Source: a virus. Taken from it: a stretch of DNA of 47,537 nt. The translations under genes were made by a program, and so were the position numbers. Positions within the stretch are counted from its first letter, which is position 1. Each line of letters begins with the position of its first letter. Below, piece after piece: positions 343-21,884 of this stretch. Below the pieces are notes generated by a model. The model did no database searches. It had not been told where the DNA came from and was given only the letters and a program-made list of their open reading frames with translations. Where the stretch lies: positions 1-47,537 of the IMG/VR virus record IMGVR_UViG_3300028548_005370, one strand, 5' to 3'.

Positions 343-798
343 CTAGATAACCATATATTTAGTTTTACCATCTTCCTTGTATGCTTTTAAACATCTGTTT
401 CTATTGTCAATTTCATTAACGTAACTAACGTGTACCCAGTTAGGATTATCATCAGTACCAAACTCCCAGATCATTTGATCAAAGTTTAAGTTCTCTTTAA
501 TCCAAGCGTACATCTCAGCGTTAGTCTTCTTACAGCCTCCATCATCTATATCCATGGCTTGACCTTTGCAATGTTGAGATGTAGTTGATCCACCAATAGC
601 TTTGTTTAGGGCTGGACCTCTATAAAAACTATTAATTCTAATAGGTCCACTTACCCATTCTCTTAACGGCTCGAATACTTGCTCGGCTAACTCCTTCATG
701 TTTGCTAACTCGAATTGACTTGGATTATTATCCAAACCTCGGCGCGTAGCCGTAGTGCTATACACTCCTTCTTTATTGCTTATGTGTTTACTTATCAT
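343..798 (-). CDS. Endolysin, peptidase M15 family (D-Ala-D-Ala carboxypeptidase-like)
   Basis: A 151-residue protein that likely cuts peptidoglycan peptide cross-links at lysis. The zinc-site pattern of M15 peptidases is visible: His76 in SQHCKGQAMDID with Asp83 seven residues on, a probable catalytic Glu112 in the FDQMIWEFG segment, and His123 in NWVHVSY. The stretch RINSFYRG (54-61) precedes the zinc site, as in VanY/Peptidase_M15_3 relatives. There is no signal peptide, so access to the wall would need a holin; a holin-like gene end lies at the far right edge of the window. It is the last substantial gene of the leftward late operon. The length is normal for a single-domain phage endolysin. 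Confidence 0.85.
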   Translation of the reverse strand: MISKHISNKEGVYSTTATRRGLDNNPSQFELANMKELAEQVFEPLREWVSGPIRINSFYRGPALNKAIGGSTTSQHCKGQAMDIDDGGCKKTNAEMYAWIKENLNFDQMIWEFGTDDNPNWVHVSYVNEIDNRNRCLKAYKEDGKTKYMVI

Positions 799-2790: not shown

Positions 2791-3096
2791 TTAATTTATT
2801 ATTACATCTACCGTTGGCGTTTCTGATGCTGATTTTGTTAACTTAATAAATAAACTAAAACCATTTTCTCCACTATTAAACTTAACAGCGTCGAGCACTA
2901 GTGTTACCCCTATGGGTAGTGTTACGGCTTTTGCCAGGTAGAATTTACCAGTTAATTTCTTTTCAATATACATATCGACAGTGCACTTGGCACTAGCGTG
3001 GGTATTAACCAGGGAGATTGACGATACGCTACCGCCATCTCCCGCTTCTAATACTTCTTGCGTTAGTTCTCCGGATATGTTTTTTTGTAAAGGCAT
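2791..3096 (-). CDS. Small beta-rich virion-associated protein, unknown
   Basis: A 101-residue protein, MPLQKNISGELTQEVLEAGD at its start, with alternating hydrophobic strands and a KFYLAKAVTLPIGVTLVLD core (about 51-70). I recognise this type from marine phage structural gene clusters but cannot name a domain. It starts directly at the end of the upstream 141-residue gene and ends one base before the fibre-like gene, so the three are probably translated from one message. No signal peptide or membrane segment is visible. It could be a decoration, chaperone or attachment protein of the fibre. Confidence 0.55.
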   Translation of the reverse strand: MPLQKNISGELTQEVLEAGDGGSVSSISLVNTHASAKCTVDMYIEKKLTGKFYLAKAVTLPIGVTLVLDAVKFNSGENGFSLFIKLTKSASETPTVDVIIN

Positions 3097-3522
3097 CTAT
3101 TCGTGGAACGTCATGTATTCTATTGTAGTTACCTCAGCAGCAGTGCTAGGTGCCGCTACAATATTGTGACCAGTACCATTAGCTTCCCAAGGAATCAACA
3201 TCCAGTCCCCGCCATATAATCTACCTATAATTTGAACAGTAGTGTCAGCTGAAGCGTTTGCGTGCAAAGAAATTTTAACATGCTCTGCTTTGTTTGAGCT
3301 TGTATTTCTAATGTAAACTTTGTTAGCTCCACTTGCCGTTGCATCAGCTGCTAATTCCAAAACCACCGCCGTTGTTGATGATAAATTTTTAACACCTAAA
3401 CCATTAGTATTTTCAATACCAGTTGTAACGCCAGCTTTGGTCATAGTCATTGTTTTGGTTATTCCAAAACCGTACTGTGTAATATCACTTGTGAGATTTA
3501 TACTCGCTGTAATTGTTGCCAT
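3097..3522 (-). CDS. RLYAGDW-family virion protein, paralogue 1
   Basis: A 141-residue protein that belongs with the next two genes upstream on the strand: all begin MAT(I/T)TA(S/T), continue with hydrophobic strands, and share a KVYI-R/C/K-N segment followed about 25-30 residues later by IGRLYGGDWMLIPW or a close variant, then a short C-terminal strand. The repeated layout indicates gene duplication. The all-beta look, the dense late-operon setting and lack of a signal peptide favour a virion component such as an appendage or decoration subunit. The leader between 3523 and 3549 is mostly T and A on the plus strand, with no Shine-Dalgarno. Confidence 0.6.
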   Translation of the reverse strand: MATITASINLTSDITQYGFGITKTMTMTKAGVTTGIENTNGLGVKNLSSTTAVVLELAADATASGANKVYIRNTSSNKAEHVKISLHANASADTTVQIIGRLYGGDWMLIPWEANGTGHNIVAAPSTAAEVTTIEYMTFHE

Positions 3523-3549
3523 ATTTATTTATTTATTTATTGTTAATTA

Positions 3550-3996
3550 TTACGTACGAGCTACCATTGTTTCGCCTTCTTTAAATATTGCCCACTCATA
3601 ATGAACAGTACCACCCTCTGCCTCTAAAGATATTTCATCTAATAAATCCCCTGCTCCTGTACCACCTTGACTCCAAGGCATGAACATCCAGTCTCCTGCG
3701 TATAAACGACCTATAATAGCATCGTGAAGTTTTACCTGTATGTAATAAGTTGGATCTGTAGCTTTATTACATATGTATACTTTAGCTGCGGTGTTTTCCC
3801 CCGCTGCTGTTGATTCTTTTAAAACTACCCCATTGTTAGAAGCAGCTACTGTTAATTCTCCACTACCAGACTCCATCATTAGCAATCCAACAGAAGTACC
3901 AGCCTTCATAAGTGTTGAACTCGCAGAGATAGACAATGGACTACTAGGTAGTAAGTCGGCGCTACTTATAGATAGCGTTGCTGTTGTTGTTGCCAT
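3550..3996 (-). CDS. RLYAGDW-family virion protein, paralogue 2
   Basis: A 148-residue protein, the middle member of the three-gene family. It carries KVYICNKATDPTYYIQVKLH and then IIGRLYAGDWMFMPWSQGGT, and ends with a HYEWAIFKEGE strand. It lacks the two-residue Asn-Thr pair after the N in paralogue 1 and has a slightly longer tail ending MVART. Short A/T-rich gaps of about 27-29 bases separate it from both relatives, unlike the one-base spacing of most neighbours, which would fit recent tandem duplication with its own translation leader. The function is unknown and inferred to be structural. Confidence 0.6.
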   Translation of the reverse strand: MATTTATLSISSADLLPSSPLSISASSTLMKAGTSVGLLMMESGSGELTVAASNNGVVLKESTAAGENTAAKVYICNKATDPTYYIQVKLHDAIIGRLYAGDWMFMPWSQGGTGAGDLLDEISLEAEGGTVHYEWAIFKEGETMVART

Positions 3997-4025
3997 AATT
4001 TATTGTTTGTTTGTTATTTTGTTAT

Positions 4026-4751
4026 TTATTCGTTTATTAATATGTGTTCTAGATCCATAGTAGTTACTACGCTTGATTCAACCACTATATCAGCTTCAGA
4101 TCTTGTACCTACTGCTGCTGCTGTAATTGCCATTGTTAAATCACTACTAGCTAAATCTGTTATAGTGTCTCCATCTATCGCGTTGGTTGTCCCTGCTGTA
4201 ACCACCCCGTTAACACCAGCTTGCCTAGCTGTAAAAGTAACAGCAGCGGTAGCTATTGATGTTGTCCAATTAGGATAGTGTTGAGCATCTACAGCTATAG
4301 CAAAGTTTGTTGAGTCAGCATCAGCGCTAGTTGTGGTAATCCCATCAAAATTCCAAGAATCTCCAGCGGCAACAGTTCCAGCGGACGTCACCACAAAAGT
4401 TTCTAAAGTTCCTTGAGTTGCACTCCAAGGGAAGAAAGCCCAATCGCCAGCATATAACCTACCCATTTCTTCTTGGTCAATGTAAACCGTAAAAAACTCC
4501 GAATGATTTGCTGAAAGATTTTTTAAATATACTTTATTAGAGCCACCTGTAAGAGCGTCATCTGCTCGGTAAATAATTTTTGATCGAGAAGCCGGAGCGG
4601 CAATAGTGAAATTTGTTTTACCTAATCCAGATGTTAGTGATAAGCCAGTAGCTGATCCCGCTAGCGACAGTGCATTTGTAGTGGAAAAGTTTAACACGCT
4701 GGAAAGCAAGTCTGCACTAGAGAGTGTTATTGTTGCTGTAGTTGTAGCCAT
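4026..4751 (-). CDS. RLYAGDW-family virion protein, paralogue 3, with inserted domain
   Basis: A 241-residue protein. The first ~115 residues match the two shorter paralogues: MATTTATITLSSADLLSS, then KVYLKNLSANHSEFFTVYID, then MGRLYAGDWAFFPWSA. The last ~15 residues, VVTTMDLEHILINE, match their C-terminal strand. Between these lies about 100 extra residues that the others lack, with an AVTFTARQAGVNGVVT stretch of the sort seen in beta-sandwich insertions of phage tail proteins. So this is the same fold with a domain inserted near the C-terminus, or the ancestor from which the others lost it. It starts one base after the T9SS-tagged gene. It probably has a structural role. Confidence 0.6.
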   Translation of the reverse strand: MATTTATITLSSADLLSSVLNFSTTNALSLAGSATGLSLTSGLGKTNFTIAAPASRSKIIYRADDALTGGSNKVYLKNLSANHSEFFTVYIDQEEMGRLYAGDWAFFPWSATQGTLETFVVTSAGTVAAGDSWNFDGITTTSADADSTNFAIAVDAQHYPNWTTSIATAAVTFTARQAGVNGVVTAGTTNAIDGDTITDLASSDLTMAITAAAVGTRSEADIVVESSVVTTMDLEHILINE

Positions 4752-4752
4752 A

Positions 4753-7017
4753 TTATTTTTTTATAATTCGTTTGTTAATTGTTTTATTGTTGTATGTTAT
4801 TTGTAACATGTACATCCCAGAACTGACTTTAGAAATGTCTAAGACGTTTGTATTTTGTTTTGATATAATCATGTCACCAATATAATTTAACACGTTTACA
4901 TCAACTTTTTTGTTTATGTTAATCACACTGCTTACTGGATTTGGGTATATTATTATAGCCTCTTCTGGTGACAATCTAGCTGGAATACCACCGGCATAAG
5001 ACCCATCACAATAGCCGTAAGTTAATTGGCAAACGTCATCCCACTCGTTGTCACAACAGTAATCATCTACAGAGATAACCCAAGCATAGCACGGGTCGTT
5101 CAACCAATAAGGTAAACCAGGGCCAGTAATGCAACCAGCATTATAAAGGCAGTTATTATCACTAACATTGGCCTCAGCGATATAATTGTAGGCATTAAGA
5201 TCCATGCAACCTTCAATGATAGTAATGCACGATTGATTCTCTGTGTTAGCCAATGGGTCATAATTGAAAGCCGTCTCTTCCATGCACCCGTATATGAATT
5301 CAATACAACTAAAATCCTCTGTGTTTGACATAGGATCATAGTTGAGCATCGAAGGATCCGTGCAACCATATACATAAGGAGTACAGCTACTATTGTTAAC
5401 ATTTGCTAGTGGGTTATAATTAAACATTGTACTATCAGTACAGCCATATATAGGTAGCACGCAACTAAAGTCATCTGTATTGCAAGGCTCGCAATAATTC
5501 AGAGCTATTGGATCTGTACAGCCGTAAGCAAAAGCGATACAAAGATTGTTGTCTGTGTTTGCTAGTGGCTCGTAGTTAAACATCGTGGAGTCAGTACAGC
5601 CGAATATAAACGGAACACAAGTTCCATTGTTTGTGTTAGCTAGCGGGTTATAGTTAAACTGTGATGGGTTTATACAACCGTATATAAATGGTATACAGCT
5701 ATTGTCCTCTACGTTAGCCGTAGGATCATAATTATATGCTGAGGTATCAATACATCCATAAACAATTCCAATGCAACCCTCATCATCTATGTTAGCTAGG
5801 GGATCATAATTTAATGCTGCGGCATTCATACAACCATAAACTACAGCTATACAAGTATCTGAAACATTAGCATTAGGATTGTAATTAAAAGCCAGTGGCT
5901 GCATACAACCCGTAACAACAGAAATACAAGAACCTGTAATCTCCGTGTTTGCCAAAGCATTATAGTTAAATGCTAGTGGATCCATACATCCTAAAACAAC
6001 TAAGGTACTACAAGAGCCATCGTCATAATCAAAGCTAGCGTTATACTCCACGTAAGTAGGACTAGTACAACCTGGATTATAATAACAACTAACGTCATCC
6101 GTATTTGCTAAGCTATCGTAATTGATAGCTGTTGGGTAAGTACACCCGAATATCTTTTCAACACATAAGTTACCACAGTAAGTTGATGTCTTGTATTTAA
6201 ACAGAGGTTGTATAAATGGAGCTAAAACTTCTATCGTGACATCGCCTAGTGGATTTGTTAGTTTAAACCCACAGTGAGAAGCTGTCAAAGCAGCTTGTTG
6301 TGTGATGTTAAACGTAAACTCTACCTGCATTGGCGAGTTTAAATTTATTATAAAATCTTGTGTATATAAAGCAGTATCTATAGTATAGTACCACGTATTA
6401 GTATCTTGTTTTACTTCTAAGTATGAAGCTTGCCATCCATCACCTATTAGATCTGTTAGTGTTAATACATAATCACAATTAGGTATTAAAGCCATTGTAT
6501 TGGCTAGTGGGTTCCAATTATACATACTGTCATCTGTACAACCAAAAATCTTTAAAGTACTACATGAACCATCATCTGTGTCAGCTAAGTGATTGAATTC
6601 GATGTATGCTGGATCCGTGCAGCCCATGACGGGTGGACAGGCATCTGAAACGAAAAAGTGCATTGAGTCATTACCAAATGCGGGATCATCACCGTAAACT
6701 AAAGTATCATTACACTGTATAACATAATAAGATCCATCTAAACCACCCCATAAAGCTCCGTTCAACCCATCGCCATAACTATCATATATTGTAAACACTA
6801 AATCACCTTCAGGTAACATAACTGGTATCACCATTGATTGATAGTTAACAGCGCTGTAATAAGGTCCGTCATAAGCAACTATAGCTCCAGATGTATCTCT
6901 TATATCCCATGAAGTTTCAGACATGTATTGGTCTAAGTTTACAACGACCTCAGCGGGGACAGGTCCTTGGCTAAAAACAGTAAACGGTAATAATAATAGT
7001 AGTAGTATTTTTTTCAT
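4753..7017 (-). CDS. Secreted Cys-rich repeat protein with T9SS C-terminal sorting domain
   Basis: A 754-residue protein. Residues 1-17, MKKILLLLLLPFTVFSQ, form a Sec signal peptide of the Bacteroidota type ending in SQ. Asp/Gly-rich loops follow at 78-87 (YDSYGDGLNG) and 187-195. Fifteen modules of the form GC-[TMI]-x(5)-(N/E)Y-(N/D)-P-L-A-N-T-x(3)-C start at residues 132, 159, 291, 316, 343, 370, 395 and then every 26 residues to 603. A CCDNEWDDVC region (654-663) is next. Residues ~684-754 are a type A T9SS sorting domain: YPNP at 691, a DISKVSSGMYMLQI strand pair, and a basic end KRIIKK. T9SS carries such proteins across the outer membrane and usually anchors them to the cell surface. The gene lies inside the phage late operon, one base from virion-type genes on both sides. 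Its role (host-surface change, superinfection block, adhesin) is inference; the domain calls are strong. Confidence 0.88.
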   Translation of the reverse strand: MKKILLLLLLPFTVFSQGPVPAEVVVNLDQYMSETSWDIRDTSGAIVAYDGPYYSAVNYQSMVIPVMLPEGDLVFTIYDSYGDGLNGALWGGLDGSYYVIQCNDTLVYGDDPAFGNDSMHFFVSDACPPVMGCTDPAYIEFNHLADTDDGSCSTLKIFGCTDDSMYNWNPLANTMALIPNCDYVLTLTDLIGDGWQASYLEVKQDTNTWYYTIDTALYTQDFIINLNSPMQVEFTFNITQQAALTASHCGFKLTNPLGDVTIEVLAPFIQPLFKYKTSTYCGNLCVEKIFGCTYPTAINYDSLANTDDVSCYYNPGCTSPTYVEYNASFDYDDGSCSTLVVLGCMDPLAFNYNALANTEITGSCISVVTGCMQPLAFNYNPNANVSDTCIAVVYGCMNAAALNYDPLANIDDEGCIGIVYGCIDTSAYNYDPTANVEDNSCIPFIYGCINPSQFNYNPLANTNNGTCVPFIFGCTDSTMFNYEPLANTDNNLCIAFAYGCTDPIALNYCEPCNTDDFSCVLPIYGCTDSTMFNYNPLANVNNSSCTPYVYGCTDPSMLNYDPMSNTEDFSCIEFIYGCMEETAFNYDPLANTENQSCITIIEGCMDLNAYNYIAEANVSDNNCLYNAGCITGPGLPYWLNDPCYAWVISVDDYCCDNEWDDVCQLTYGYCDGSYAGGIPARLSPEEAIIIYPNPVSSVININKKVDVNVLNYIGDMIISKQNTNVLDISKVSSGMYMLQITYNNKTINKRIIKK
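5149..6147 (-). repeat. Tandem 78-bp (26-residue) Cys-pair modules in the T9SS-tagged gene
   Basis: Thirteen consecutive protein modules lie between residues 291 and 623, the last nine with GC starts at exactly 26-residue spacing (395, 421, 447, 473, 499, 525, 551, 577, 603). Each begins Gly-Cys and ends with a second Cys about 19 residues later, consistent with one disulfide per module once exported. DNA identity between modules is clearly lower than protein pattern identity, so the array is old or diversified and not a fresh slippage product. Confidence 0.85.
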
Positions 7018-7281
7018 TTATTTAGGTCTTTTTGCTGGGTTTTGATGTTGACAACTTCCTTTAGCGCCCTCTGTAGTTCCAGGCTTTCTCTCGTGTGACT
7101 TCCAACACTTTAAAGGAGAAGCATAGTGCACTTCTCTTAACTTAAATGGACCACCCGGTTTATGCGATACAGGTTTACTGTCATCACCATGCTTTTTACC
7201 CGTGTGAACTTTGTTACCAGGCATTTTATGTGTTGGCCCATCATACTCACCATCTTCCGTGTAATGCTTTACCCCTTTCAT
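7018..7281 (-). CDS. Small basic His/Lys/Pro-rich protein, unknown
   Basis: An 87-residue protein if translation starts at the ATG at 7281 (MKGVKHYTEDGEYDGPTHKM). A longer frame with an ATG at 7335 exists, but its extra 18 residues would overlap the upstream gene by more than 50 bases and do not look conserved in style, so the internal start one base after that gene's stop is preferred. The protein is rich in H, K, G and P, for example KMPGNKVHTGKKHGDD, and ends CQHQNPAKRPK. Histidine and cysteine pairs could bind metal, but no named motif is clear. It sits between a second small basic protein and the T9SS-tagged gene. Confidence 0.55.
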   Translation of the reverse strand: MKGVKHYTEDGEYDGPTHKMPGNKVHTGKKHGDDSKPVSHKPGGPFKLREVHYASPLKCWKSHERKPGTTEGAKGSCQHQNPAKRPK

Positions 7282-7282
7282 A

Positions 7283-7564
7283 TTATGATTTTTTATTTGC
7301 TCTACAAAACTTTGCCGCAGCACCCACACTACCAAACCCCCATTTCTTTAAAGCTATTGCTTTTCTAGTATCTCTTCCTTTGCTATCTTTCATTGGGCCT
7401 TTCATACCAGCGAACCTACAGGCAAAACTTACTCTTCTAGGACTAGTACCGCTAGTCTGTCTAGAGCCCAGTGACTTGCCAGTCTCACTCTTGTATTTAG
7501 ATCGCATTTCCCTATTTGATTTCTCGTAGGCTTGGTTTGTTAGCTTAAGTGGTGAATATGCCAT
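7283..7564 (-). CDS. Small basic protein resembling DUF6321
   Basis: A 93-residue, strongly basic protein, MAYSPLKLTNQAYEKSNREM at the start, with a C-terminal IALKKWGFGSVGAAAKFCR stretch (about 70-88). That pattern, with the preceding SFACRFAGMKGPMKDSKGR, resembles the DUF6321 family found in marine and other environmental phages. No function is established for it. High Arg/Lys content would suit nucleic-acid binding. It begins one base after the thioredoxin-like gene and is followed after one base by another small basic protein. The DUF label is from memory of the motif. Confidence 0.6.
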   Translation of the reverse strand: MAYSPLKLTNQAYEKSNREMRSKYKSETGKSLGSRQTSGTSPRRVSFACRFAGMKGPMKDSKGRDTRKAIALKKWGFGSVGAAAKFCRANKKS

Positions 7565-7565
7565 G

Positions 7566-7931
7566 TTAAAAGTCGCTCATTAATATATTATCTATTTCTT
7601 CTTGTACCTCTTCTCTCGTTGCCATCATCTTGAAACTAAGATCAGCCTGAAACCTAGCAACCTCAATATTATCTTTAAATATTATAATAGTAGGTATGGC
7701 TGCTATTTTATGTTTTACTTGTAACTTAGGGTTAGTTGCTATATCTACGTACGATATTGTTTGGCAGTCATCAAGATCCATTACCCAAGAAACTGCGTTA
7801 GCACCGTTCCACTCAGCGTTAAACTGCGCTACAGATATTTGACCTGATGCTTTACCACATACGCACACTAGCACTAGCACTAACAAGTATATACCTAAAA
7901 TTTTCCAAGCAACATCTATTTTACCCATCAT
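7566..7931 (-). CDS. Membrane-anchored thioredoxin-fold protein lacking the CxxC active site
   Basis: A 121-residue protein. Residues 8-25 form a hydrophobic segment (a signal anchor or signal peptide, followed by KASGQ), placing the rest in the periplasm. The remainder aligns by eye with thioredoxin: QFNAEWNGANAVSWV (36-50) sits where thioredoxins have WCGPC, KHKIAAIPTIIIFKDN (73-88) carries the cis-proline (Pro80), and an ARFQADLSF strand follows. The catalytic cysteines are replaced by Asn42 and Asn45, so it cannot work as a dithiol oxidoreductase. Cysteines 23, 25 and 56 remain. It overlaps the upstream one-TM gene by 4 bases (ATGA), implying coupled translation. A binding or structural use of the fold is inferred. 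Confidence 0.72.
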   Translation of the reverse strand: MMGKIDVAWKILGIYLLVLVLVCVCGKASGQISVAQFNAEWNGANAVSWVMDLDDCQTISYVDIATNPKLQVKHKIAAIPTIIIFKDNIEVARFQADLSFKMMATREEVQEEIDNILMSDF

Positions 7932-8209
7932 CTGTCGTAAAGTTTATCCTCTATTCTTTCGAGGGTTTTTTTCATAGCTTCCACGTCTTCCTGTGTGGTT
8001 AGAATTGTTTGCCTAATCATTTTATCCTTCATATCAAACTCCATCCTGCTTACGTCTTGAGGTGGTGGCTCGGGTAGTGTCCTCGCTTCAGCGATATCAG
8101 CTTGTAACATAAACCACATGCTTATAACAGTGGCCATCGCAGCGCCTATTCCTACTAAAGTTTTTATACTTACTTTAAAACCGCTATCCTCGTTTAATTC
8201 TTTTGCCAT
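7928..8209 (-). CDS. Single-TM small membrane protein with coiled-coil tail (possible holin or spanin-like)
   Basis: A 93-residue protein with a polar N-terminus, one membrane segment at about 15-36 (LVGIGAAMATVISMWFML), a short AEARTLPEPPPQ linker, and a heptad-like charged C-terminal helix from about 53 to 93 (EDVEAMKKTLERIEDKLYDR). This is the layout of a small lysis or membrane-associated phage protein; a holin, pinholin or i-spanin-like role are all possible. Its stop overlaps the start of the thioredoxin-like gene. It begins one base after the outer-membrane-like gene. No lipobox is seen. The function is not proven by sequence. Confidence 0.55.
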   Translation of the reverse strand: MAKELNEDSGFKVSIKTLVGIGAAMATVISMWFMLQADIAEARTLPEPPPQDVSRMEFDMKDKMIRQTILTTQEDVEAMKKTLERIEDKLYDR

Positions 8210-8210
8210 G

Positions 8211-9290
8211 TTAAAATATAACGTAGTTCATACCTAATTTAAAATCGTACCAAGTTCTGTTCCAGTACTTATTGTATTTTCCTTCAAGAAAATAACCTAA
8301 TTGTTTATTGTGCTTAATTCCATATATAAACCCAAGCGAGTAATCTGCCCACTGACCATCTACATAGTTGTGATAAGAAAACTCACTACCGTTGTCGTAG
8401 TGGTATGGCATAACGCTTCCCCAAGCGTGTATCCAAGTTGACTTGCTATATTTGTAGTAATCAAAACCCATGACAAGCGAGTGTTGTAGGGTTTTCTTTA
8501 ATTCGTTTCTTTTCTTTTCAGTGTAATCAGCTAAGACTTCTGGTATAACCACTGCCTCCCAAACTTCTGGGCTAGTAGCAACTAACTCACCTGAAGGTGA
8601 AAAGTATTCGCTGCTATACACGTCTACCGTGTAACCTTCTTGTAGTGCTAAATAAGTATAATGAATATCTCCATTATCTAACATCCACTCGTCTAGCGCG
8701 TTATAGCCGTATGGTTCAGCAAGTCTATGAGCTGCCCCAATATTCCAAGACAGGTTTCTATTTTTTCTAACTCTATATCTTTCCGATGCTTCAAAATATT
8801 TAATATCAGCAAATCCATCTTCTAAGTATTCTACTTTTAAAGCAAAAAAGTTTATACACATCTCGTCTGGACAGCCATCATCAGAACTATATCTAATAAA
8901 ATGGTGTTGATCCATGTAGTTTTTACCTTCTTGTCTTTTGTAGTCTACTTCAAATAAGTATTCAACCCCTCTTGACTTACCTACAATGGCTGCATCACTG
9001 TAATTCGTCTCAGTACCATCATAAAATGTTTGTGCTTTGTTTTCGTATCCGAATCTAGCTATTTTACGTAGTCCTATTGCGAAATTATAATCGTAAGGAG
9101 TTGAAATTGTTTGTGTTGATAACCCGTTGTTTACGGAAAACACGTCTACATCAGACAATGATGTACCACCATTTACCGCAGCATAAAACGTAGAGAACTT
9201 AAACAGCTTCTTAACGTCTTCTTTACCAAGTGTTTGAGCTGTTACTAGATTTGACACTAGTAAGAGCAGTATTATTAGTCTTTTCACCAT
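8211..9290 (-). CDS. Exported protein, probable outer-membrane beta-barrel
   Basis: A 359-residue protein. Residues 1-19, MVKRLIILLLLVSNLVTAQ, form a clear Sec signal peptide of Bacteroidota style. The mature part alternates aromatic and polar residues, for example FEVDYKRQE, WNIGAAHRL, SLVMGFDYYKYS and DYSLGFIYGIK, and ends in a strand closing on an aromatic residue, FKLGMNYVIF, as barrel proteins do. This suggests insertion in the host outer membrane. A CPDEMC pair (about residues 139-144) could form a disulfide. It lies between the giant internal protein gene and the one-TM gene, in the middle of the late operon. It may alter permeability, block adsorption of other phages or aid lysis; none is shown by sequence. 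Confidence 0.68.
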   Translation of the reverse strand: MVKRLIILLLLVSNLVTAQTLGKEDVKKLFKFSTFYAAVNGGTSLSDVDVFSVNNGLSTQTISTPYDYNFAIGLRKIARFGYENKAQTFYDGTETNYSDAAIVGKSRGVEYLFEVDYKRQEGKNYMDQHHFIRYSSDDGCPDEMCINFFALKVEYLEDGFADIKYFEASERYRVRKNRNLSWNIGAAHRLAEPYGYNALDEWMLDNGDIHYTYLALQEGYTVDVYSSEYFSPSGELVATSPEVWEAVVIPEVLADYTEKKRNELKKTLQHSLVMGFDYYKYSKSTWIHAWGSVMPYHYDNGSEFSYHNYVDGQWADYSLGFIYGIKHNKQLGYFLEGKYNKYWNRTWYDFKLGMNYVIF

Positions 9291-21052: not shown

Positions 21053-21451
21053 TTATAATTTTTTAATCATTTCTATTGGTTTGTTACTGTGTATAAAACC
21101 GCAATCTTCAAACTTTTCTTTTAAACTTTCATTAATTAAGTAGGTGAAAACAAACTTACAACCTAGCTCCTTCGCTTGGTTGGTTAATGTTTCTATTAGT
21201 TTTTTTATTGCTTCTTTTCTAACAATTTTATCTCTAAAATTAGGGTTTGATATAGTCCACTCTATATACGCTAAATCGCTATTAGTGGTATATAGAAACC
21301 CCGCACAAACATCAACACCCTCGTGTTGAACCATAACCCCACCCTTACCCGAATCTGGTAGCGAATTTTTAAGAACAGGTGTCCACCTCCACCACCTCCA
21401 CCACTCGCATAGCGTTTCGTAATCCTCGTCTAGTAGCTTACGAATTTCCAT
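21053..21451 (-). CDS. GNAT-like acetyltransferase-fold protein, copy 2
   Basis: A 132-residue protein, MEIRKLLDEDYETLCEWWRW at its start. It shares its order of elements with the gene just upstream: an opening with a Trp-rich CEWW segment, GKGGVMVQHEGVDVCAGFLY, TNSDLAYIEWTISNPNF, a helix of KEAIKKLIETL, then FVFTYLINESLKEKFEDCGF. These are beta strands and helices of the GNAT fold; the family transfers an acetyl group from acetyl-CoA, but a clear acetyl-CoA loop is not obvious. It overlaps the upstream copy by 14 bases. Such genes occur in tail/internal gene regions of many marine phages; the substrate is unknown. Confidence 0.6.
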   Translation of the reverse strand: MEIRKLLDEDYETLCEWWRWWRWTPVLKNSLPDSGKGGVMVQHEGVDVCAGFLYTTNSDLAYIEWTISNPNFRDKIVRKEAIKKLIETLTNQAKELGCKFVFTYLINESLKEKFEDCGFIHSNKPIEMIKKL

Positions 21452-21884
21452 CCTGTAACTTACTTGCTACTTTCTCATGAGTATATATTACGCTGTACTT
21501 GTCTTCTAAAACCTCATACCCCAAGTCTCTACATCTTTTTACAACACCGTCATAAGTTGTCATAGCCCACATTAATCTACATCCTTCCTTTAATCCAACA
21601 GCTGTGCATAGATCTATCAAATCCAAAATCATGCTATACCTATCTCTGCCTTTGTAATTTGGATCACCAACTAAGTAATCAACATAAGCTACATCGGAAT
21701 TTGTAAAGTATAAGAAGGCACATGCCCTAATTTTTCCTTCTTTTTCTACTACATATCCACCTAGACCATTGTTGGGTAACAACCCAGAGTCAGGAACTTC
21801 AATGTGATCGTAAGAATCCCACCACTTATTTAAGGTGGGGAAATCCTCAACCCTCACGGGTCTAATTTCGTATTTTTTGTCCAT
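21438..21884 (-). CDS. GNAT-like acetyltransferase-fold protein, copy 1
   Basis: A 148-residue protein with the same layout as its neighbour: IRPVRVEDFPTLNKWWDSY, then a GLGGYVVEKEGKIRACAFLY strand pair, TNSDVAYVDYLVGDPNYKGR, a helix (DLIDLCTAVGLKEG), and a MTTYDGVVKRCRDLGYEVLE end. The shared TNSD-(L/V)-AY signature makes the pair paralogues. GNAT proteins modify amines of proteins, sugars or drugs. A 43-base A/T-rich gap precedes it. Two adjacent, diverged copies suggest distinct substrates or partners. No regulatory signal was found. Confidence 0.62.
   Translation of the reverse strand: MDKKYEIRPVRVEDFPTLNKWWDSYDHIEVPDSGLLPNNGLGGYVVEKEGKIRACAFLYFTNSDVAYVDYLVGDPNYKGRDRYSMILDLIDLCTAVGLKEGCRLMWAMTTYDGVVKRCRDLGYEVLEDKYSVIYTHEKVASKLQDGNS

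Follow-up and report, generated by a model that had tools for sequence, protein, structure and literature searches.

Cargo proteins of the T9SS are exported by Sec, fold oxidatively in the periplasm, pass through SprA/PorV and are then released from, or attached to, the cell surface. Phage genes carrying T9SS type A sorting domains have been reported for Cryophage, and hijacking of the host T9SS together with superinfection exclusion was proposed for it (Bellas et al. 2020, PMC7468147). In Cryophage the cargo genes vary, occurring singly (endoglucanase, GH39, PA14) in flexible islands (PMC7468147). In crAss-like phages, too, T9SS sorting domains have been reported close to head genes (de Jonge et al. 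2019, PMC6949934), where the available portion of the report gives a gut setting and a BACON-domain context and describes no cassette. A bacterial arrangement is also relevant, in which the PorP/SprF outer-membrane barrel is encoded beside type B T9SS cargo (PMC10202324).

The locus described here resembles each of these systems in part. It shares with Cryophage the presence of T9SS type A sorting domains on phage genes, with the crAss-like phages a T9SS sorting domain protein near the head genes of a Bacteroidota phage, and with PorP/SprF the adjoining of an outer-membrane barrel gene and a T9SS cargo gene. Unlike in Cryophage, the gene for one conserved repeat protein stays together with three other envelope genes across hundreds of contigs from marine phages. 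Unlike PorP/SprF, the phage barrel matches no PorP/SprF or other barrel model and the cargo ends in a type A or short tail. Neither the type B CTD model (TIGR04131) nor a PorP/SprF model matched the cargo or the barrel in NCBIfam and Pfam, and a reading as PorP/SprF with a type B CTD was rejected for want of profile support. A preliminary description of the locus had presented phage-encoded T9SS cargo as a strategy not known to be described; given the Cryophage and crAss-like reports, that priority falls away. The new elements are a four-gene module that is conserved and broadly distributed, a pair of tails that replace each other, and a class of short tails in marine Flavobacteriales. A literature search of open-licence PMC texts found no description of the module, the tail interchange or the short-tail class.

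The window, meaning the whole stretch of DNA analysed, is the entire 47.5-kb IMG/VR virus record IMGVR_UViG_3300028548_005370 (47,537 nucleotides), and the record is probably incomplete. Its main genes lie on the minus strand and are almost gapless. The TerL, portal and major capsid genes matched those of Flavobacterium elemo phages, Cellulophaga phages and Maribacter phage Panino, with the uncultured podovirus MW202828 as a further relative (62.6% TerL identity). The TerL and MCP relatives, taken with bacterial homologues, suggest that the host would belong to the Flavobacteriia. SprA was present in 161 of 196 genomes of the order to which the genome of one bacterial homologue belongs. After the cargo gene, window positions 2791-4751 hold tandem short paralogues (MATTTATITLSSADL...GRLYAGDW), which had no Pfam match and of which 114 copies were seen in 66 of 89 loci. 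Elsewhere in the window (21053-21884), two adjoining small ORFs resemble duplicated acetyltransferase-type genes.

The cargo gene (4753..7017, minus strand) encodes 754 amino acids comprising a signal peptide, folded domains, cysteine-rich modules and a type A sorting domain; all minus-strand features below are given in window coordinates. The signal peptide occupies residues 1-16 (6970..7017), with cleavage predicted at MKKILLLLLLPFTVFS|Q. An N-terminal Gln on mature exported proteins is the Bacteroidetes "Q-rule" (PMC5837995), with which the predicted mature N-terminus, Q17, agrees. Signal peptides were called by a simple heuristic together with conservation; Q17 was invariant in 41 aligned homologues, and a small residue followed by Q occurred in 82 of 82 cargo homologues. 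Odd signal peptides ending ..ACSxPKKCCxQ, a mixture of a lipobox-like C and a Q-rule end, were seen in two cargo proteins (L061, L094) and three barrel proteins (L007:6833, L050:1433, L016:6812).

Beyond the signal peptide, an AlphaFold model placed one beta-sandwich at residues 20-124 (6646..6960) and a second, inserted among the GC modules, at residues 180-278 (6184..6480). The main array of GC...C modules, defined by spacing analysis, covers residues 291-627 (5137..6147) with a 26-residue period. The protein has 15 such modules, nine of which start at exact 26-residue steps (395, 421 ... 603). Seven consecutive GC pairs were spaced by 26 residues, as against a maximum of one in 20,000 composition shuffles, and the spacing is thus far beyond chance. 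The array is followed by a module at residues 628-670 (5008..5136) that is near-invariant across homologues and contains the CCxxxWDxxC motif (residues 654-663). About 20 disulfides are possible in the whole protein. AlphaFold gave no usable model of the repeats (pLDDT under 50).

The sorting domain lies at residues 690-754 (4756..4950). Its C-terminus matched PF18962 over the full profile (E=4.3e-11; 43.4 bits against a cut-off of 27) and TIGR04183 over the whole profile (E=1.5e-8; 34.5 bits against 23). AlphaFold modelled the CTD confidently (pLDDT about 80-87), and the best PDB match of the model was 8glk_D (E 8.8e-5, TM 0.73, 29% identity), the NucA CTD solved bound inside the F. johnsoniae T9SS. 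The next matches were the CTDs of FspA, RgpB and mirolase, with 8glj_D, 7pq4 and 8qb1 among the structures matched, and a profile built from the phage CTDs found 8glk_D at 2.9e-11. Profile and modelled fold both identify the C-terminus as a true T9SS sorting domain of type A. In common with the bacterial type A cargo proteins NucA, FspA and RgpB, the phage protein has a signal peptide, a C-terminal sorting domain and the CTD fold. It differs from them in being phage-encoded within a phage-specific cassette, in its roughly 20 possible disulfides, and in that two thirds of its homologues carry a short tail in place of the type A domain. The preliminary description had been drawn from the sequence alone, and the signal peptide, the 15 modules with nine at exact spacing, the CCxxxWDxxC motif and the type A domain all held up. 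Its proposal of a phage-encoded, disulfide-rich T9SS cargo is supported by both profiles, which scored above their cut-offs where an absence of profile matches would have spoken against it, and by the fold match to 8glk_D.

A first scan of IMG/VR found 16 relatives of the cargo and a second at least 363; the best-scoring 80 matches were taken per large scan, and the counts that follow therefore describe near relatives. Among 89 cargo loci, all 82 homologues with a 5' end had a signal-peptide-like start and all 82 with a 3' end had a sorting-type tail, of which 27 were type A and 55 were a tail of about 39 residues. These classes come from profile matches, which gave 55 short tails and, besides the window, 27 full ones; "..ILGR" tails are included. 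The expectation in the preliminary description that homologues would keep both ends was thus borne out in essentially all of them, although in two thirds the C-terminal end is the short tail and not type A.

The short tail is about 38-45 amino acids long, with a conserved G and a basic end, and its consensus reads ekkLimiTDLLGRpvkeikNklLlYIYdDGtVekkiikk. No NCBIfam model matched the short-tailed proteins tested. A tail of about 39 residues (TDLLGRE...LFYIYDDGTVEKKIIIE) was seen in loci L122-L150 and in genomes G015, G057, G163 and others, and no Pfam or NCBIfam model matched it in the proteins tested. In bacteria, the short tail occurred in 68 of 196 genomes in the order of a marine Flavobacteriales MAG (G001), with up to 38 copies per genome, at the C-terminus of extracellular PHB-depolymerase-type esterases and of SprB-repeat, PKD and arylsulfotransferase proteins. 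Among related bacterial esterases with the same catalytic domain, most carried the short tail and two (L233, L236) a type A CTD. SprA was found in 66 of the 68 short-tail genomes, an association that is partly confounded because most SprA-negative genomes are reduced (0.6-Mb). Alignment of short and type A tails by hhalign was collinear but weak (probability 7%), and the case for their equivalence therefore rests on their interchange in the homologues and in the bacterial esterases. A tblastn search of 50,697 phage records with the consensus tails returned nothing convincing, tblastn being weak for domains so short; one short-tail-like sequence was noted at E=0.05 in a 635-kb uncultured phage (LR745206.1 42658-42765, minus strand).

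Short CTDs have been described in Prevotella intermedia, where they measure 40-51 residues instead of 69 or more, have an absolutely conserved Gly in motif B and a basic C-terminal motif E, and are cleaved and glycosylated as long ones are (PMC11969387). P. intermedia was called the sole species seen with short CTDs (PMC11969387). In P. gingivalis, export of HBP35 needs the last 22 residues (PMC3120885). The marine tail shares with the P. intermedia CTDs its shortness, the motif B Gly and the basic motif E. It lacks their GxY/GxN motif D, in place of which it has [LF]xYIY, and unlike the Prevotella type it has its own consensus (TDLLGR...YIYDDGTVEKK) and is found in Flavobacteriales and their phages. 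Because motif D is missing, the marine tail is not filed as the Prevotella type, though it would work like it. The marine tail of about 39 residues is very probably an uncharacterised short T9SS tail, and such tails likely form an overlooked class of T9SS sorting signal in marine Flavobacteriales.

On a tree of the barrel gene that accompanies the cargo, tail type changed at least 14 times, at least eight of these changes being forced by well-supported branches, and the tail was never lost. The window, which has the type A domain, was sister with full support to a short-tailed phage (L017). The conserved feature is possession of a sorting tail and not the type of tail. Repeated swapping without loss is the pattern predicted by selection for a sorting signal. 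The two tail "dialects", type A and the undescribed 39-residue form, possibly track the tails of the host's own cargo.

The cargo gene does not stand alone. Directly upstream lie genes for a barrel, a coiled-coil protein and a thioredoxin-fold protein, and 78-79 of the 89 cargo loci contain them. The single-gene view taken in the preliminary description was in this respect incomplete, since the cargo gene is tightly linked to three other envelope genes, and its placing of the gene between virion genes is refined to a position in a conserved cassette of envelope genes close to the lysis genes. Cassette gene 1 (8211..9290, minus strand) encodes a barrel with a signal peptide, 12 predicted strands, a C-terminal F and, separating strands 7 and 8, a 75-aa insert that is conserved; its best PDB match was the 12-strand porin NanC. 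Homologues had the signal peptide in 137 of 139 cases and the C-terminal F in 129 of 139. With a signal peptide, an even number of strands and a C-terminal aromatic residue, the predicted product has the hallmarks of an outer-membrane barrel. Cassette gene 2 (7928..8209, minus strand) is predicted to encode 93 amino acids with one transmembrane segment and a coiled-coil-like tail, and its end is overlapped by the start of cassette gene 3 (7566..7931, minus strand), whose product is an exported thioredoxin-fold protein. No CxxC active site was found in the gene 3 homologues read, which have WNxxN there and retain the fold only. With WNxxN in place of CxxC the protein is unlikely to form disulfides, and a disulfide-isomerase role for it was dropped. 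Between gene 3 and the cargo gene, locus comparison identified two optional genes: a DUF6321 gene, named by profile search (7283..7564, minus strand; 8 of 89 loci), and a small gene whose likely start is an internal ATG (7018..7281, minus strand; 7 of 89 loci).

Linkage of the four genes was close from either direction. The barrel was present in 79 of 89 cargo loci, most exceptions being contig ends, and all four genes were present in 34 of 34 barrel loci fetched with sufficient flank; linkage among close relatives reflects common descent in part. IMG/VR held 575 relatives of the barrel. In tblastn searches of 50,697 phage records, the barrel and the coiled-coil protein had no match and the thioredoxin-like protein matched only unrelated thioredoxins. 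One marginal barrel match was found among 295 Bacteroidia genomes, so that the barrel is phage-specific as far as tested. A PHROGs search with the cargo, the barrel and their neighbours assigned the cassette to no family. A second small outer-membrane beta-barrel, PF13505-like below threshold and with a signal peptide, was seen near some cassettes (L100:20098-20511, minus strand, and 16 other viral loci). The cassette also occurred with other phage genes in L019, filed under a Sphingobacteriales MAG, which is probably a phage contig, mis-binned, or a prophage.

Among 50 cassette contigs, some TerL genes were 79-87% identical and others only 24-27%; where TerL was not detected, the contigs mostly measured 55-129 kb. 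The barrel tree required at least six changes of TerL background. These unrelated backgrounds and changes indicate that the cassette crosses phage lineages. It is quite probable that the four genes act as one functional unit. Our confidence is evenly balanced on the broader view of a mobile trans-envelope module in hundreds of marine Bacteroidota phages, without a cultured example, that would combine a barrel with a T9SS-exported, disulfide-rich coat bearing a dialect-switching tail.

We lean towards the reading that the product of gene 4753-7017 is cargo which the phage makes for the host T9SS, and that the gene is the fourth of a phage-specific envelope cassette. Export and display of the protein via the T9SS, as predicted from its two ends, is highly probable. 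The cargo would be exported by Sec, form its disulfides during periplasmic folding, and pass SprA with PorV to be released or attached at the cell surface. The phage barrel may hold or help the repeat protein, and the membrane and periplasmic cassette proteins would act together with both. The one indication of timing is operon position, from which late expression would follow, and, late in infection, cassette-bearing viruses probably reshape the surface of the host cell as it dies. The repeat protein may mask or alter that surface, such that the dying cell and its debris would not be adsorbed by other phages or by the phage's own progeny. Adsorption blocking is put forward tentatively as the purpose of the cassette; superinfection exclusion often acts early in infection, which counts against late adsorption blocking.

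The main rival is a spanin-like role in lysis and release, in which the coiled coil, the thioredoxin-fold protein and the barrel would breach the outer membrane as a spanin analogue while the cargo destabilised the surface layer. The three products that are not T9SS cargo would span the inner membrane, the periplasm and the outer membrane. In 68 of 89 loci the flanking sequence contains genes for an M15 endolysin, a 3TM holin or DUF5675, which would also suit a lysis role; in the window, the M15 peptidase endolysin is downstream of the cassette (343..798, minus strand; phrog_894). However, the coiled-coil gene is kept in 32 of 36 loci that have a separate 3TM holin and so need not be a holin, its product in the window (7928-8209) had no significant match to known spanin or holin profiles in Pfam and PHROGs, known spanin families were likewise unmatched there, and a large cysteine-rich T9SS cargo would be left unexplained. 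We regard this reading as unlikely.

Less likely again is an adhesin or matrix role, in which a sticky repeat protein would bind together infected cells, debris and virions, or bind cells to particles or new hosts. The number of repeats differs among the cargo homologues and similar GC...C modules occur in marine Flavobacteriales proteins, both of which would suit an adhesin, but a Pfam profile search found no known adhesin domain in the cargo, and an adhesin alone would leave the linkage to the barrel and periplasmic genes unexplained. A virion component, that is, a tail or capsid decoration merely resembling exported proteins, is very improbable. The gene does sit in the structural gene region, and a cyanophage S-CAM3 protein with a virion structural annotation (NC_031906 36382-37932, L262) contains cargo-like GC...C modules. 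Virion proteins of tailed phages assemble in the cytoplasm, however, whereas every complete homologue has a signal-peptide-like start and a sorting tail, and the linked barrel has the conserved signal peptide and C-terminal F noted above. A recently captured host gene without function, for which the related modules and both tails in marine Flavobacteriales might speak, was rejected as next to impossible, since selection is indicated by the hundreds of relatives, by the obligate linkage of the four genes and by the conservation of the domain plan, and the barrel is marginally present in a single Bacteroidia genome.

With a T9SS cargo acting within an envelope cassette as the preferred reading, phage use of the host T9SS moves from a single published suggestion to a four-gene module that is widespread and testable and is present in hundreds of contigs of ocean phages, two genes of the module, the barrel and the coiled coil, being unmatched in the phage records searched. 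The short sorting tails are missed by profile libraries, and the secretomes of marine Flavobacteriales are thus probably undercounted. If the cassette does block adsorption, it would represent an envelope-level system of phage-phage competition in an abundant group of marine bacteria.
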